A stretch of 64,000 nt of DNA. Source: Marinifilum sp. N1E240. Lineage in GTDB: Bacteria; Bacteroidota; Bacteroidia; Bacteroidales; Marinifilaceae. The position numbers were made by a program, and so were the translations under genes. The stretch is from assembly GCF_009295825.1 (NCBI RefSeq), contig NZ_WHKF01000004.1, positions 62,001 to 126,000 on the forward strand, read 5' to 3'. The notes under the pieces are model-generated. The model had not been told where the DNA came from, searched no databases, and saw nothing but the letters and a program-made list of their open reading frames with translations. Of this stretch, positions 15,399 to 22,933 are shown in pieces. Within the stretch, counting starts at the first letter, position 1, and each line of letters opens with the position of its first letter.

Positions 15399-16235
15399 TT
15401 ATTGAACCAGATAAATTCCGGCATCTTCAATTGTAATTAGTTTCTGCTTGTACAAAAGTCCAATAGCCTTTTTGAAGTTTTTCTTACTCATTTTTAGTGT
15501 GTAGTAAATGTCATCAGGAGAACTTTTATCATTTAAAGGAAGAAATCCTTCTTCATCTTTAAGCATATCTAAGATCTGTTGTCCCGATTTTGGTACTTCA
15601 TTCTGATATCCTTGCTGTTGAAGGCTAATGTCGATTTTTCCGTCAGGTCTTAGTTTCTTGATGTAAGCTTTTCTTTTATCTCCGGTTTTTAAGTGACCGA
15701 AAATTTCATTTTTGTAGATAATTCCTAATGCATCATCATTAATTAAGACTTGGAAACCTAAATCTCCTTTCTTCCCAACTAAAATATCTACTTCATCACC
15801 TTCATTATAAGATAACTCTACATCTTTAAGAATTTTTTCAATTTTAGCAGTTGCAACAATTCTTCCCGTTGATTCATCTATGTACACGAAAACCAGATAG
15901 GATAGCCCTTCTTGCAATTTATCTCTTTGCTCACTGAAAGGTACCAAAAGATCTTTGGCTAAACCCCAATCCAAAAAGGCACCAACATTGGTTACTGATT
16001 TAACTTTCATAACCGCAAATTCTCCTGCAATAGCTTTTGGAGTCAGTGTTGTAGCAATAATTCTATCTTCAGAATCACGATAAATAAAGACTTTAATAGT
16101 GTCATCAATTTGTGTTTTGGCTGGAACATATTGATTTGGAAGCAATATTAAAGCTTCATCTTCACCTTCCAGAAAAACTCCGAAATCAACTAGTTTGGCA
16201 ACTTTTAATTCTGCGTATTGTCCGATTATACTCAC
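15399..16235 (-). CDS. cvfB: S1-domain RNA-binding protein, CvfB-like
   Basis: 278 residues with no signal peptide. Three S1-like beta-barrel units are at about 1-63 (LKVAKLVDFGVFLEG), 68-132 (MKVKSVTNVGAFLDWG) and 145-205, followed by a C-terminal winged helix of about 60 residues (MSKKNFKKAIGLLYKQKLITIE). This is the CvfB/YitL architecture. Staphylococcal CvfB binds RNA and affects virulence gene expression; in Bacteroidetes the role is untested. First gene of a probable two-gene operon. Confidence 0.85.
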   Translation of the reverse strand: MSIIGQYAELKVAKLVDFGVFLEGEDEALILLPNQYVPAKTQIDDTIKVFIYRDSEDRIIATTLTPKAIAGEFAVMKVKSVTNVGAFLDWGLAKDLLVPFSEQRDKLQEGLSYLVFVYIDESTGRIVATAKIEKILKDVELSYNEGDEVDILVGKKGDLGFQVLINDDALGIIYKNEIFGHLKTGDKRKAYIKKLRPDGKIDISLQQQGYQNEVPKSGQQILDMLKDEEGFLPLNDKSSPDDIYYTLKMSKKNFKKAIGLLYKQKLITIEDAGIYLVQ

Positions 16236-16861: not shown

Positions 16862-19800
16862 ATGAAAAAAAGGAAACTATTAGTCAGGGATCTAACATTA
16901 AGAGATGGACAGCAATCTCTTTTTGCGACTAGAATGCCGCAAGCAGAGATCGAGAAAGTATTGCACCTGTATAAGAAAGCAAACTTTTATGCAATGGAAG
17001 TGTGGGGTGGAGCAGTACCTGATTCTGTAATGCGTTATTTGAATGAGGATCCTTGGTATCGTCTAGAGTCCATTAAAGAGGTGATTGGTGATGTTTCCAA
17101 ACTTACCGCCTTATCTCGTGGACGAAATTTATTTGGTTATAGCCCTTATCCTGAAACAGTAATTAAGAATTTTAATACACAAGCCGTAAAATCAGGTTTG
17201 GGTATCATGCGTATTTTCGATTGTTTGAATGATATCGAAAATATGAAATCTACAATTAAGTACGTTAAAGAAGCTGGAGGTTTGGCTGATTGTGCTGTGT
17301 GTTTCACTGTAGATTCCAAGTTTCCTACTAAAAAAGAAGATTTGGAAAGATTAACAATTAAGGATCTTCCTGAGCAAATTTTTGATCTTGACTACTTTGT
17401 GAACATGGCGAAGAAGCTTGAAGCTTTAGGAGCCGATATGATTTCACTTAAAGATATGGCTGGATTAGCTTCACCTTCATTTGCAGGTAAAATCATTCGC
17501 CGATTTAAAGAAGAATTAAGTATTCCTGTTGATTTCCATTCACATTCTACACCTGGATACGGATTAGCTTCTGCTCTTTCTGCGATAGTTAATGGTGTTG
17601 ATATTATCGACACAAACATCATGAACTTTGCTGGTGGTTCAGCAGCTCCGGCATACGAATTGGTATATTTATTCTGCCAGAAATTGGGCATTGAATTAGA
17701 TGGTGATGCGAAAACTGTTGTAGAAATCAACAAAATTCTGAAAGAGATTCGTACGAATGCTTTGGCTGATGTAGATAGCTACAAGCAATTCCCAATTGAA
17801 TTTGATATTACAAAAGATAAATTGCCAGCAAACATTGATCAATTATTCGATGTGGCAATTAAGCATGCAAAAGCAGACAACGAGGAAGAATTGTTGAAAG
17901 CTTGTCATGCAATTGAAGAATATTTTAATTTCCCAGCTCCTAACGAAATGGTTAAGAATGCGGAAATTCCTGGAGGTATGTACACTAACATGCTAAACCA
18001 GTTGAAAGCTTTAGGTTTGGAAACCCTGCTTGAGAGAGTGTTAGAAGTGGTACCGGTGGTTCGTTTGGATGCAGGTTGTCCGCCATTGGTAACCCCTTCT
18101 TCTCAAATTGTAGGTGTACAGGCTGTAAACTGTGTAATCGATGAGAACTCTGGTCGTCCGTTCTATACTAACGTATCCAACCAATTCTTTAATTTGGTTA
18201 AAGGTGAATATGGAACAACTCCAATTGATATTGTTCCTGCATTTCGTGAAAAAATCACAGGAAAAGCTGAAAAAGTAGAATATGATGTAGATGCTTATGT
18301 ATCTCCTGAAAATCCAACATTGCCACAGTACGGAAACGTAAAATTGGCTAAGGACGATAAAGAATTCATGTTGCTAGAACTTTTCCCATTGGTAGCTAAA
18401 GGTTACTTAGAAGGAAAGCGTAAAGTAGAATTCGAAGCACAAAGAGAAGCAAATCGCAAGAAAATTGCTGCTGAAAGAGCTGCAATCAAACGTACAGGTA
18501 GATTAAAGATTCGTGACCTTACCCTTCGTGATGGTCAGCAATCATTATTTGCTACTCGTGTTCCTCAGGCTGAAATTGAAACAGTTCTGCCTTTGTACAA
18601 AGATGCTAACTTCTATGCAATGGAAGTATGGGGTGGAGCAATTCCTGATTCTGTAATGCGTTACTTGAATGAGGATCCATGGCATCGATTAGAGTCTATT
18701 AAAGAAGTTATTGGTGATGTTTCACATTTAACAGCTCTATCTCGTGGTAGAAACTTATTTGGTTATTCTCCATATCCAGAGTCAGTAATCGAAGGTTTCA
18801 ATAAGAATGCTGTGAAATCCGGTTTGGGTATCATGCGTATCTTCGACTGTCTGAACGATGTGAAGAACATGGAAACTACCATTAGGTATATGAAAGAGGC
18901 AGGCGGTATTGCCGACTGTGCTGTTTGTTATACTGTAGATCCTAAGTTTACAAGAAAGCAAAGATGGAAAGCATTACTTGCGGGTAAGAAGTTGCCTAAG
19001 AAGATCTTCGATGTTGACTATTTTGTTAACAAAGCGAAGCAAATGGAAGCAATGGGAGCTGATATGATTACCGTAAAGGATATGGCTGGATTGATTCCTC
19101 CATCATTATCAGGTAAGATTATCAAGCGTTTGAAGAAAGAGATTGATCTTCCTATTGATTTTCATACTCACTGTACTCCAGGTTATGGTTTAGGTGCTGT
19201 TTTAATGGCAATTGTTAATGGTGTTGATATTGTTGATACAAACATCTTGAATTTTGCAGGTGGACCAGCTGCTCCGGCATTCGAAATCATTCAGATTTTT
19301 GCTGATAAGTTAGGTTTGGACACAGGTGTGAATCTGGAGGCTGTTGTTGAAATCAACAAGGAATTAAAGGGAATTCGTGAGAGAATTGCAGAATTCGATT
19401 CTTACAAAATGTTCCCATTAGAATTTGATATTACTGCTGATTATCTTCCAAAAGAGATTGATTCATTATTCGATAAAGCTATTGAATTAGCTAAAGCTGA
19501 TAAGGAAGAAGAATTGTTAGAGGTTTGTAACGCTATTGATAAGTTCTTCAACTTCCCGGCACCAAACGAAGAGGTCAAAGCTGCTGAAATTCCAGGTGGC
19601 ATGTACACCAATATGTTGGCTCAGTTGAAAAGCTTAGGTTTGGAAGATTTATTGCCAACTGTATTATTGAAAGTACCGGAAGTACGAGTTGCAGCAGGTT
19701 GTCCTCCATTGGTTACTCCATCATCGCAAATTATCGGTGTACAGGCAGTAAACTATGTATTGGATGTGAACAGCGGTAAAGCTCCATATACAAACGTAAA

Positions 19801-20302
19801 TAACCAGTTCTTTAACCTTGTAAAAGGGGAGTACGGTGAAACTCCAATCGATATCGATCCGGAATACCGTCATAAGATCTGTGGTCAGAGCGAAGCAACT
19901 GACTTTGATGTAAGTAAATATCAATCACCGGAGAATCCAGTATTGGATGAGTTTGGTGGAGTTAAATTGGCTGAAAACGAAAAAGAAATGCTATTGTTGG
20001 AATTATTCCCAACTGTTGCTGGTCCTTTCTTGAAAAACAGAAAAGCCGATGCTTACTACGAAAAAGTAAATGCTGAAGAGGAAGAAAAACAAAGAATCAT
20101 TGACGAGAAGAAAGCTGCTTACAGAGCAATTCCTGCAGAAGAGAAAGAAGCTATGATGCTTAAGGGATTGTATAGTATGGGAGGAGATTCTACTCAAGCA
20201 ACCGGAGAAATTACTCAGCCTGAGGAGAAAGAATCAAAGCTTGATATCAAAACAAAAGAAATGCTTATGGCACAGAAGCCTAAAAGCAGATTAGTAGGGT
20301 AA
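16862..20302 (+). CDS. Tandem-duplicated biotin-dependent carboxyltransferase (OadA / pyruvate carboxylase B / 5S type)
   Basis: 1146 residues in one open frame. Residues about 1-545 and 546-1146 are two full carboxyltransferase units, each with an HMGL-like barrel and a PYC/OADA conserved domain. Both keep the signature RDLTLRDGQQSLFATR, the carbamylated-lysine motif (ISLKDMAGL and ITVKDMAGL), the metal ligands HxH (FHSHSTPGYG and FHTHCTPGYG) and a C-terminal EIPGGMYTNML segment. There is no biotin carboxylase and no biotin-carrier (MKM) domain, so partners must be encoded elsewhere. Expected chemistry is carboxyl transfer between pyruvate/oxaloacetate and biotin. Single units of this family are about 500-600 residues, so the fusion is unusual. 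Copies differ at many silent sites, so the duplication is not recent. Confidence 0.88.
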   Translation: MKKRKLLVRDLTLRDGQQSLFATRMPQAEIEKVLHLYKKANFYAMEVWGGAVPDSVMRYLNEDPWYRLESIKEVIGDVSKLTALSRGRNLFGYSPYPETVIKNFNTQAVKSGLGIMRIFDCLNDIENMKSTIKYVKEAGGLADCAVCFTVDSKFPTKKEDLERLTIKDLPEQIFDLDYFVNMAKKLEALGADMISLKDMAGLASPSFAGKIIRRFKEELSIPVDFHSHSTPGYGLASALSAIVNGVDIIDTNIMNFAGGSAAPAYELVYLFCQKLGIELDGDAKTVVEINKILKEIRTNALADVDSYKQFPIEFDITKDKLPANIDQLFDVAIKHAKADNEEELLKACHAIEEYFNFPAPNEMVKNAEIPGGMYTNMLNQLKALGLETLLERVLEVVPVVRLDAGCPPLVTPSSQIVGVQAVNCVIDENSGRPFYTNVSNQFFNLVKGEYGTTPIDIVPAFREKITGKAEKVEYDVDAYVSPENPTLPQYGNVKLAKDDKEFMLLELFPLVAKGYLEGKRKVEFEAQREANRKKIAAERAAIKRTGRLKIRDLTLRDGQQSLFATRVPQAEIETVLPLYKDANFYAMEVWGGAIPDSVMRYLNEDPWHRLESIKEVIGDVSHLTALSRGRNLFGYSPYPESVIEGFNKNAVKSGLGIMRIFDCLNDVKNMETTIRYMKEAGGIADCAVCYTVDPKFTRKQRWKALLAGKKLPKKIFDVDYFVNKAKQMEAMGADMITVKDMAGLIPPSLSGKIIKRLKKEIDLPIDFHTHCTPGYGLGAVLMAIVNGVDIVDTNILNFAGGPAAPAFEIIQIFADKLGLDTGVNLEAVVEINKELKGIRERIAEFDSYKMFPLEFDITADYLPKEIDSLFDKAIELAKADKEEELLEVCNAIDKFFNFPAPNEEVKAAEIPGGMYTNMLAQLKSLGLEDLLPTVLLKVPEVRVAAGCPPLVTPSSQIIGVQAVNYVLDVNSGKAPYTNVNNQFFNLVKGEYGETPIDIDPEYRHKICGQSEATDFDVSKYQSPENPVLDEFGGVKLAENEKEMLLLELFPTVAGPFLKNRKADAYYEKVNAEEEEKQRIIDEKKAAYRAIPAEEKEAMMLKGLYSMGGDSTQATGEITQPEEKESKLDIKTKEMLMAQKPKSRLVG

Positions 20303-20500: not shown

Positions 20501-22933
20501 TTATTCGTACTTAAGAGCATAAATCGGATCTTTTCTTGCTGCATTCCAGGTTTGCCAGCTTACCGTAACAATTGCAATGATCAAAGCTATGATACCAGCA
20601 AGGGCAAATATCCACCATGATAAATCTGTTTTGTAAGCAAAGTGCTGTAACCAGTCTTCTGCAGTATAATAGGCTAGCGGACAGGCGATAATAAATGCCA
20701 GAGCAACCCAAATAGCATATTCCCTAATTAATTGTATCATAATTTCCAAAGAACTAGCTCCATTTGCTTTTCTAATTCCAATTTCTTTGGTTTTGTGCTG
20801 AATGCTGTAGGATGATAATGCAAACATTCCCAAAATTGATAGTAATATGGAAAGAATAGCGAACAATGTAAGTGCTTTCATTTCCTTGTATTGGTTTTTG
20901 TAAATTTCGGCGTAAATATCATCAAGAAATTTATATTTCATTAGCGAATCGGGAAATAACTGATTCCATTCTTTAGTAAGTTTCTGGATTGCTTCGGCTT
21001 TTTTGTTTTTATTAATTTTCACTAGAAAAGTTCCATTAAAAATACGTTTAAGACCAATCACCATTGGTAATTCTTTCGAAAAAAGATCAGCATAGTGTAA
21101 ATCTTTAATTACAGCTACAATTTCCCCCTTTTTAAAATACCGAGGAGCTCTAAAATGATATTGAAATTGTCTTCCGATAGCATCTTCGGGATTTTTAAAC
21201 CCTAGTTTTTTAACCGCTGATTCATTTAATATGTATTGCTCTTTAAAATTTTTGTGGATAGGATCGAGTTTTTCTAAATTCTGGAGTGCTATCTCGCTAT
21301 TGGGTGTTATTGCTTTGCATTCCCAGATAAAATCTGATCCATTCTGTAATTCTAAATTTCCAACTAAGGCTTTAATATTGAATAGTTTGAAAAAGTCTTT
21401 TTCTACTGAATTAATCATGATTCTATTCTCCTTGCTGTTTTCAATTCCTTCCATTTCGAAAGAGTGCTCGAAATCAGGAAAGATTCCAGGTGGCATGAAT
21501 GTGGAACTTAAATATTCAATTTCGGAGTGTTGTTGCACTTTTTCTTTTAACAAATCAAATTTAGCTATAGCCTCATATGGAAAATTGCTAATGGTTAATA
21601 TGGATTCTTTATCTTCTCCTGGATGTGTTTTTTGGATATAATCAACTTGCTTGTGTAATACCATGGTAAGTATTATTGCTGATATTGACAATACAAATTG
21701 GAATACAAGTGAAATGATAAATTTTTTGGATCCTTGATCAGGAGTTTTACTTAAGTTATTCGATATGTTTTTTGTATAAAGAGGCAGCAAAGCAATAAAA
21801 CTAAATAGAATTGCAAAAAAAATCGATACACATAAAAAGAGTTTTATTGAGAAATTAAACTGCAGATTAAAATTAGAAATATTATCAAAATTTATAGCAA
21901 TTAAAGTTCCAATAACAATAGCAATGCAGGTATGAAAAAGAGATACACCAATTTGATTTGTTGATAAATTCAAAAGCGAAGCTCCATTAATGATTTTTAT
22001 TTTTAAATCCTTTAGATTGGTAGTAAACTGTACAAAATTTAAATTTGAATAATTTACAATGGCGATTAGGAATACTATTAATGCACCAATAACCAGAATT
22101 ATAATGGAATTCAAATTGCCATTTGATCCCAGTTCATCACGCATGTGGCTTTTTAGATGAATATCTTTTAGATTCATTAATTTGAACGTGGGCGCTAATT
22201 CACTCTCTTTTACATTTTTTTTCCAATACAGATTTAAAGCATCTGCTAGTTGAATTGGATTACTCTCTTTTTGCAGAAGTAAATAAGTAAAAGCAGTACC
22301 ATATGGACTTTGCAGGTTTTCTGTTTTCTCTGAAATCAGTAAATTGAAAGTCATATGAGAATTAGATGGAAAATCATCAAAAACAGCTTTCACGGTATAG
22401 CTTGTTCCATCATTATTATCATATTCCGATTTTATTTTTACTTCCTTACCAACAACCTTAGTATCGCCAAAATACTTAAGCGCGGCTTTTTTACTTAAAA
22501 CAATTTCATTGGTATTTTTAAAAAGATCATTTTTATTTCCCTGTAGAAGGTTAAAATCGAATAGGTTAAAAAAGGAATGATCTGTGTAAAACGATTTTTC
22601 AATACTATATGTTTCAGCTCCGACTTTCAAGCTTAAATTGTAAGTATTAGTTAGTAAGGTAACATCTTTTATTTCGGGAAAATAATCATATAAACTCGAT
22701 GTGTAATAACCATTTAAGGAAGCTGTTTGAAGATTGTCAGCAGTTTCCATAAATCCTACTCTTCCAGGTTTATCTACGTTTAATCGGTAGATATTATCTG
22801 CCTTTGAATGGAATTTGTCAAATGACAATTCGTGTATGGTGTAGGTGCTTACCAATAAAATAGCAGCAAACGCAATAGCAATACCAATAATATTAATCGT
22901 AGCCCACTTGTTTTTTTGAGATAGTATTTTCAT
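20501..22933 (-). CDS. MacB/FtsX-like ABC transporter permease
   Basis: 810 residues. TM1 is at about 10-30, followed by a large periplasmic MacB-type core (FDKFHSKADNIYRLN, ... VVGKEVKI). Three helices lie around 280-395, then a further helix near 410 and a second periplasmic core. The last three FtsX helices include the conserved SSYSIQHKTKEIGIRKANGASSLEI. It is a double-length permease, as is usual in Bacteroidetes for this family. It probably works with the ATPase gene 12 bases upstream to move or expel an envelope-located substrate; the substrate is unknown. Confidence 0.88.
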   Translation of the reverse strand: MKILSQKNKWATINIIGIAIAFAAILLVSTYTIHELSFDKFHSKADNIYRLNVDKPGRVGFMETADNLQTASLNGYYTSSLYDYFPEIKDVTLLTNTYNLSLKVGAETYSIEKSFYTDHSFFNLFDFNLLQGNKNDLFKNTNEIVLSKKAALKYFGDTKVVGKEVKIKSEYDNNDGTSYTVKAVFDDFPSNSHMTFNLLISEKTENLQSPYGTAFTYLLLQKESNPIQLADALNLYWKKNVKESELAPTFKLMNLKDIHLKSHMRDELGSNGNLNSIIILVIGALIVFLIAIVNYSNLNFVQFTTNLKDLKIKIINGASLLNLSTNQIGVSLFHTCIAIVIGTLIAINFDNISNFNLQFNFSIKLFLCVSIFFAILFSFIALLPLYTKNISNNLSKTPDQGSKKFIISLVFQFVLSISAIILTMVLHKQVDYIQKTHPGEDKESILTISNFPYEAIAKFDLLKEKVQQHSEIEYLSSTFMPPGIFPDFEHSFEMEGIENSKENRIMINSVEKDFFKLFNIKALVGNLELQNGSDFIWECKAITPNSEIALQNLEKLDPIHKNFKEQYILNESAVKKLGFKNPEDAIGRQFQYHFRAPRYFKKGEIVAVIKDLHYADLFSKELPMVIGLKRIFNGTFLVKINKNKKAEAIQKLTKEWNQLFPDSLMKYKFLDDIYAEIYKNQYKEMKALTLFAILSILLSILGMFALSSYSIQHKTKEIGIRKANGASSLEIMIQLIREYAIWVALAFIIACPLAYYTAEDWLQHFAYKTDLSWWIFALAGIIALIIAIVTVSWQTWNAARKDPIYALKYE

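Follow-up and report, generated by a model that had tools for sequence, protein, structure and literature searches.

What does a polypeptide that carries two carboxyltransferase (CT) units and no biotin domain do in the cell? The question is raised by an open reading frame (ORF) of Marinifilum sp. N1E240, located in a stretch of 64,000 nucleotides of contig NZ_WHKF01000004.1 (positions 62,001 to 126,000), hereafter the window, in whose numbering it runs from 16862 to 20302 on the + strand. The ORF is intact, starts with ATG and encodes 1146 amino acids. A Pfam scan of the protein gave two HMGL-like and two PYC_OADA matches, with whole-protein scores of 105.7 bits (cut-off 29) and 220 bits (cut-off 27), which places it among the HMGL-like/PYC_OADA carboxyltransferases; at E 0.001 no further family, and no biotin or biotin carboxylase domain, was matched. 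Residues 1-545 and 546-1146 are identical at 363 of 543 positions (67%, 81% positives), far above chance. An earlier note, made from the letters of the DNA, had described two complete CT units on one chain devoid of biotin-carrier and carboxylase domains, and the scan bears out both parts of this description. The parts of this gene, which we call the tandem, are the following.

16862..18385, + strand: unit 1 (N half, residues 1-508), barrel plus funnel, HMGL-like and PYC_OADA, from Pfam and AlphaFold2 model match; active-site residues R14, D15, Q18, R86, Y93, K197, H226, H228, T411, S414.
18386..18481, + strand: charged helical linker (residues 509-540, 32 residues), a helix in the AlphaFold2 model.
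18482..20053, + strand: unit 2 core (C half, residues 541-1064), barrel plus funnel, from Pfam and AlphaFold2 model match; active-site residues R556, D557, Q560, R628, Y635, K739, H768, H770, T952, S955.
20054..20302, + strand: C-terminal charged helix and tail (residues 1065-1146 and stop), from the tail alignment, tandem lengths and the predicted local confidence (pLDDT).

The tandem is a real, conserved architecture. Searches with a match limit of E ≤ 1e-60 were carried out in the 56 genomes of the window's family and the 27 genomes of a second family (that of G138). Matches were found in 47 of the former, 22 of them tandems (85-100% identity) and 25 single units, and in 23 of the latter, as 5 tandems and 18 singles; the search for other two-unit proteins that the earlier note had proposed was positive in both families. 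Every matching genome has one match, so that tandem and single unit were not seen together. Gene structure, conservation and this lack of a second copy at E 1e-60 show that the tandem arose by duplication and fusion of a single-unit gene, and that it now stands in its place. A misassembly of two separate genes, against which the earlier note had warned, is excluded by the recurrence of the tandem in other assemblies, three of which are single-contig genomes (G223, G224 and G231).

Named relatives gave a similar view of the carriers. The best 80 of 426 relatives correspond to 78 loci, 76 of which (all but L188 and L191) were read: 25 are tandems, and 51 are single units without biotin motif. 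These loci overlap with the genomes of the family searches, some being the same assemblies. Tandems are carried by Labilibaculum, Marinifilum, Ancylomarina, Marinifilaceae metagenome-assembled genomes (MAGs), Prolixibacteraceae bacterium JC049, Perlabentimonas gracilis and Bacteroidales MAGs, the closest relatives of the window protein in this set being Labilibaculum MAGs (94%). Biotin-less singles measure 563-594 residues, except one shorter read. In an order-wide sample of 198 genomes, where the CT family was called at E < 1e-100, it was present in 46, with one unit in 44 of them; G136, with short CT fragments at 64-66% identity, was scored as lacking it. No published report of a tandem CT was found in the open-licence literature searched.

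Both active sites are intact. In the relevant parts of PMC9581989, the CT metal of Lactococcus lactis pyruvate carboxylase is bound by His732, His734, Arg533, Asp534 and carboxylysine 703, Arg606 contacts pyruvate, and Thr867 and Ser870 contact the carboxyl group and biotin. These positions were mapped through alignments to solved structures and to Rhizobium etli pyruvate carboxylase, via motif order and spacing, the catalytic threonine being placed in VTPSSQ by register to the R. etli enzyme and by the Thr867/Ser870 spacing (PMC9581989). They correspond to R14, D15, R86, K197, H226, H228, T411 and S414 in half 1, and to R556, D557, R628, K739, H768, H770, T952 and S955 in half 2. Q18/Q560 and Y93/Y635, which we take to belong to the active site as well, were added to the set. 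All ten positions, including the pyruvate arginine, carry the same residue in each half of 25 out of 25 tandems (the window and 24 of the 25 named ones) and in 62 out of 62 units of the tree described below. On this closer alignment neither half has lost the key residues, a loss that the earlier note had considered possible. Judging from the invariant residues, each unit would hold a divalent metal through the carboxylated lysine and two histidines, and would interconvert pyruvate and oxaloacetate with carboxybiotin.

Strong purifying selection on both halves is supported by codon comparisons. Between the halves, synonymous divergence (dS) is ∼2.0, near saturation, for a non-synonymous divergence (dN) of 0.27 and 67% nucleotide identity (NG86). 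Compared with 8 orthologues, dN/dS is 0.035-0.081 for half 1, 0.028-0.052 for the core of half 2 (546-1060) and 0.06-0.17 for the tail. Silent divergence between two copies that selection has kept, as had been suggested beforehand, is indeed what these values describe (dN/dS below 0.1 in both halves).

The history of the fusion was examined on a midpoint-rooted tree of 62 rows including 9 tandems, from which 10 tandems (thinning), the partial L096, and L014, L026 and L095 (start motif not read) were left out. The nine N halves form one clade (100/98), and the comparison of the halves that the earlier note had called for shows that position, and not species, decides how they cluster. The sister group of the N-half clade consists of the C halves from Marinifilaceae and JC049 (96/97); those of the second family fall among single units (99/93). 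Topology tests rejected neither a single clade of all tandem halves (approximately unbiased test, p-AU 0.111) nor one clade of all C halves (p-AU 0.063). Quick trees of two gene segments kept the N halves together with lower support (94, 91), the C halves needing 2 and 3 changes. The economical reading of the sequences, favoured because the linker is equal in length among the tandems compared (ungapped in the 9-row alignment and in 9 linkers), would be one fusion followed by replacement of the C unit in one lineage; an independent fusion in the second family is a possible alternative.

At its deepest split (100/100) the tree divides into members with a fused biotin domain and members without, and the tandem belongs to the latter, biotin-less clade. 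One biotin-less row, G105, lies on the biotin-fused side. This protein of 525 residues (L255, on G105:C123) ends directly after the CT domain and has neither biotin motif nor C-terminal peptide; its genome has the CT of pair B, described below.

The peptide in question closes the biotin-less singles. In an alignment of 79 rows of such units, where some genomes occur twice, a poorly conserved charged stretch precedes a conserved peptide (K 0.96, R 0.87, L 0.91, G 0.95, L 0.94, Y 0.83). A search for the pattern [RKL][LIMV]xxG[LI]Y gave matches in 25 of 34 biotin-less proteins from the order sample, a group whose two tandems both lack it, and likewise in 41 of the 51 singles known by name and in 2 of the 25 named tandems. 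It was found in 0 of 12 biotin-fused members, and it is absent from the end of unit 1 in 25 out of 25 tandems. Many Marinifilaceae tandems keep a looser form, GLYS or ALYN, and the tail of the window tandem has the peptide EEKxxxLxGLY at residues 1093-1104. Beyond it pLDDT falls below 50 (residues 1106-1128, 1130-1132 and 1138-1146); this low-confidence tail occurs in Marinifilaceae tandems, and not in the shorter ones of JC049 and of the second family. From its position and conservation, our guess is that the peptide may be a docking element.

Since the chain has no biotin domain, the tandem must use a free biotin carrier. The flanking genes lie on the opposite strand (15399-16235 and 20501-22933, both -), and neighbours of the tandem in the window (clusters c5-c10) also flank the tandem of L116, another genome of the family. 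Biotin-enzyme neighbours in L105 and L114 were motif-only matches, without similarity to N1E240 biotin proteins, and were rejected. As the CT gene has no biotin-enzyme neighbour, the partner was sought genome-wide. The N1E240 genome has five genes of the Carboxyl_trans family, to which we take transcarboxylase 12S to belong. One of them, at C32:592k, adjoins a biotin carrier of 102 residues, with neither carboxylase nor pump near; we call these two genes pair B. At C11:1084k one strand carries a glyoxalase-family gene (taken as epimerase), an mmdA-like CT, OAD gamma, a carrier and a Na+ pump beta subunit. The genome has one other PYC_OADA gene (C2), which is biotin-fused and adjoins a 12S-like CT. 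At that locus (L097, C2:50000-64000) the 12S-like CT (518 residues) and the biotin-fused OadA-type CT (634 residues) are adjacent and lie ∼1.4 kb from a tyrosine integrase; this two-gene carboxyl-transfer pair is possibly mobile.

Pair B, as a CT orthologue with an adjacent small carrier ORF, was present in 18 of 20 chosen genomes, and missing in G003 and G113. It was read as sequence in 17, with CT and carrier adjacent and the CT 74-99% identical to that of N1E240, and by Pfam matches only in G268; none of the 17 stretches (∼10 kb each) matched a biotin carboxylase or OadB. Across the order sample, the CT of pair B, called at ≥72% identity and without regard to the carrier, was found in 130 of 198 genomes, a count in which short orthologues under the E-value limit would be missed and six genomes with matches only at 56-59% identity were scored as negative. 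By class it occurred in 31 of the 34 genomes whose unit is biotin-less, in 4 of the 12 whose unit is fused and in 95 of the 152 without the family. Fisher tests of co-occurrence, which ignore descent, gave p values of 2.3e-4 and 9e-4. These are no evidence of independent coupling, because the tree offers only two independent pairs. The small carrier itself was present in all 22 tandem genomes of the window's family (71-100% identity), and at 46-58% in most genomes with fused singles among the matches listed. Seven of the 20 chosen relatives had no biotin carboxylase match, namely the biotin-less G086, G089 and G003 (all three 98% complete) and the biotin-fused G205, G214, G195 and G113; in G086 and G089 the carriers found adjoin Carboxyl_trans genes. 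Since three biotin-less genomes show no biotin carboxylase match, the family is not bound to function as an ATP-driven pyruvate carboxylase. The case for a partner thus draws mainly on these genomes and on chemistry, a biotin-less CT needing a free carrier.

Two biotin-domain matches in the same open frame were seen in the biotin-fused single CT genes at G195:C1:1563155-1563622 and G113:C2:46016-46516 (frames of 712 and 723 residues). In G195 an open frame of 372 residues (C1:3210395-3211249), ∼1.2 kb from a Carboxyl_trans gene, has three biotinyl-domain matches.

We propose, with a probability of roughly 0.43, that the tandem is the covalent 5S-type pair of a dispersed methylmalonyl-CoA:pyruvate transcarboxylase acting in the succinate/propionate pathway. 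Its most likely partner would be the small carrier of pair B, beside the 12S-like CT at C32:592k; tandem and pair B would together form the dispersed enzyme, and a single polypeptide would supply its two-site CT particle. Labilibaculum strains form some propionate, 'likely' via the methylmalonyl-CoA pathway according to the relevant portion of PMC5760507. Several observations weigh against this proposal. In the whole window and in the stretches of 15 relatives, no ORF besides the CT gene resembles N1E240 biotin proteins. The N1E240 genome has two biotin carboxylases, and pump-type carriers are also present. The four N1E240 Carboxyl_trans proteins scanned fit mmdA best, with scores under its cut-off (778-852 of 998.8 bits), so that methylmalonyl-CoA is only the presumed substrate of the 12S-like genes. 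The NCBIfam model for 5S (NF008984) has a cut-off of 827 bits, for scores of 281 and 296 with the halves and 568 with the whole. As to co-occurrence, the tree has just two changes of biotin state, which leaves the two independent pairs mentioned above; the pair-B CT is common without the CT family (95 of 152 order-sample genomes); G222 (94% complete) has the small carrier (68%) but lacks any CT match at E 1e-60; and G003, G054 and G162 have a biotin-less unit and no pair-B CT. Finally, the packing of the halves was not settled by two AlphaFold2 models (predicted template modelling scores, pTM, of 0.63 and 0.71).

Other enzymes could be built around such a chain. It might be the alpha subunit of a Na+-pumping oxaloacetate decarboxylase, borrowing the carrier and the OadB-type pump of the methylmalonyl-CoA decarboxylase operon. 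The C11:1084k genes offer the parts for it, and G003 combines a biotin-less unit with one Carboxyl_trans gene and, over the Pfam cut-off, only a pump-type biotin carrier. We consider it a live rival, though unlikely, since the pair-B CT accompanies most biotin-less members and is often missing where the unit is fused, a contrast confounded by descent, and since both halves stay under the OadA cut-off (339 and 356 of 756.5 bits). A split ATP-dependent pyruvate carboxylase, with the tandem as its CT subunit and the carboxylase and carrier taken from the propionyl-CoA-carboxylase-like operon at C11:1057k, is likewise a live rival, in our view slightly less likely again. Pyruvate carboxylase subunit B is the best model for the halves (386.2 and 401.9 of 402 bits), and a biotin carboxylase is present in N1E240 and in 5 tandem genomes among the 20 checked; yet no biotin carboxylase was matched in the seven genomes listed above (three biotin-less, four biotin-fused), nor was one found close to the CT gene, be it in the window or in the stretches of the 15 relatives.

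The two units might also differ in function, unit 1 having shifted to another substrate or to a regulatory or structural role. The earlier note had imagined two specialised sites, one for pyruvate and the other for methylmalonyl-CoA; the ten active-site positions, identical in the two halves of 25 out of 25 tandems and invariant in both, do not support it, and in the known transcarboxylase the methylmalonyl-CoA step is done by a separate subunit, 12S, as described in part of PMC10604320. That note had also pointed to a local change in copy two, RKQRWKALLAGKKL. The situation is the reverse: in 21 rows (the two window halves and 19 single units) the consensus is DPKFTxKQKxKAxLxGKxLP, of which RKQRWKALLAGKKL is typical, and it is copy one, with PTKKEDLERLTIKDLPEQ, that is divergent. 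Unit 1 does form its own clade, lacks the C-terminal extension and its peptide, and in Marinifilaceae reads HSHS instead of HTHC. It has five private residues (P155, A203, G281, V396 and V399, Ala203 being close to the lysine motif), compared to one in a 9-row control clade of singles; however, a 12-row control clade also has five, none of those of unit 1 falls at a position conserved in ≥85% of the other units of the 62-unit set, and dN/dS is similar for both halves. Specialisation of copy one is thus possible, but not supported, and a difference in function appears quite improbable. To an assembly artefact or a recent functionless duplication we give virtually no credence: we found no point for it, the tandem recurs, including in single-contig genomes, dS between halves is ∼2 and dN/dS is below 0.1 in both.

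Should the transcarboxylase proposal hold, Bacteroidales would possess a transcarboxylase route with which genome reconstructions have not credited them. The pertinent sections of a human gut genome survey place the 5S/12S enzyme in two Actinobacteria genera, and in no case alongside the other two enzymes that decarboxylate methylmalonyl-CoA (PMC9403272); within the corresponding sections of PMC9403272 and PMC3962364, transcarboxylase is not assigned to Bacteroidales. A more general scheme, tentative and somewhat doubtful, is that Bacteroidales have an unrecognised, dispersed transcarboxylase whose biotin-less 5S-like unit, present twice per chain in Marinifilaceae and some relatives, is recruited to a free small carrier or its 12S-like partner via the peptide Y..LSPEEKxxRLxxGLYNYxW, sited where the sister clade has its fused biotin domain, and that this enzyme coexists with the Na+-pump decarboxylase. 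If true, such a cell could either retain the carboxyl group in oxaloacetate or use it up for Na+ export. In the tandem, moreover, two CT sites are naturally joined by a covalent link and each can be disabled without the other, so that the independence of paired CT sites can be tested directly.

The comparison of each half with OadA and 5S structures, suggested by the earlier note, was made on the second AlphaFold2 model (mean pLDDT 88.9). Unit 1 of this model rests on 17 rows, because all 34 single-unit rows aligned to unit 2. Unit 1 (residues 2-523) matches the CT of pyruvate carboxylase, e.g. 5vyz_A (Z 40.4, root mean square deviation (rmsd) 2.5, 443 aligned), and unit 2 (544-1064) matches OadA 2nx9_A (Z 42.5), PycB 5ks8_D (Z 42.1) and 5S 1rqb (Z 41.8). 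Part of PMC10604320 describes a barrel dimer in transcarboxylase, and by analogy it is plausible that the tandem is a built-in dimer. Compared to 5S, OadA and PycB, the family has inserts, at residues 151-171 and ∼300-360 of unit 1 and likewise in unit 2, which are common to single units.

Among known systems, 5S of Propionibacterium shermanii (1rqb) shares with unit 2 the barrel-plus-funnel fold (rmsd 2.1 over 439 residues, 35% identity), its metal and lysine motifs align, and its chain too has no biotin domain. It has one unit per chain instead of two in tandem, and lacks the inserts of ∼20 residues (151-171) and ∼50 residues between barrel and funnel. It works with separate 12S and 1.3S subunits; N1E240 has a 12S-like CT and a small carrier elsewhere in its genome. 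The CT domain of Vibrio cholerae OadA (2nx9) has the same fold (rmsd 2.2 over 442 residues) and shares the motifs, but the OadA model closes with a biotin domain, as seen from a lone carrier that matches its positions 458-580, and the tandem has none; with this domain included the TIGR01108 cut-off is 756.5 bits, above the 687 bits of the whole tandem. Of the solved structures, the beta subunit of the two-subunit pyruvate carboxylase of Methylobacillus flagellatus (5ks8) matches both halves best in sequence (8.2e-74, 9.4e-78). With NF006761, the subunit B domain model whose cut-off is 402 bits, the whole tandem scores 778 bits, a figure that adds up two units. Unlike the tandem, this beta subunit is a chain of 617 residues with one CT unit, and the tandem's family occurs in genomes without biotin carboxylase match. 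Closest are the single-unit biotin-less relatives of Bacteroidales, such as that of Breznakibacter xylanolyticus (L190): they are 61-70% identical to unit 2 (19 aligned), have the same inserts and, in 41 of 51 named cases, the C-terminal GLY pattern, and differ from the tandem in having one unit only.

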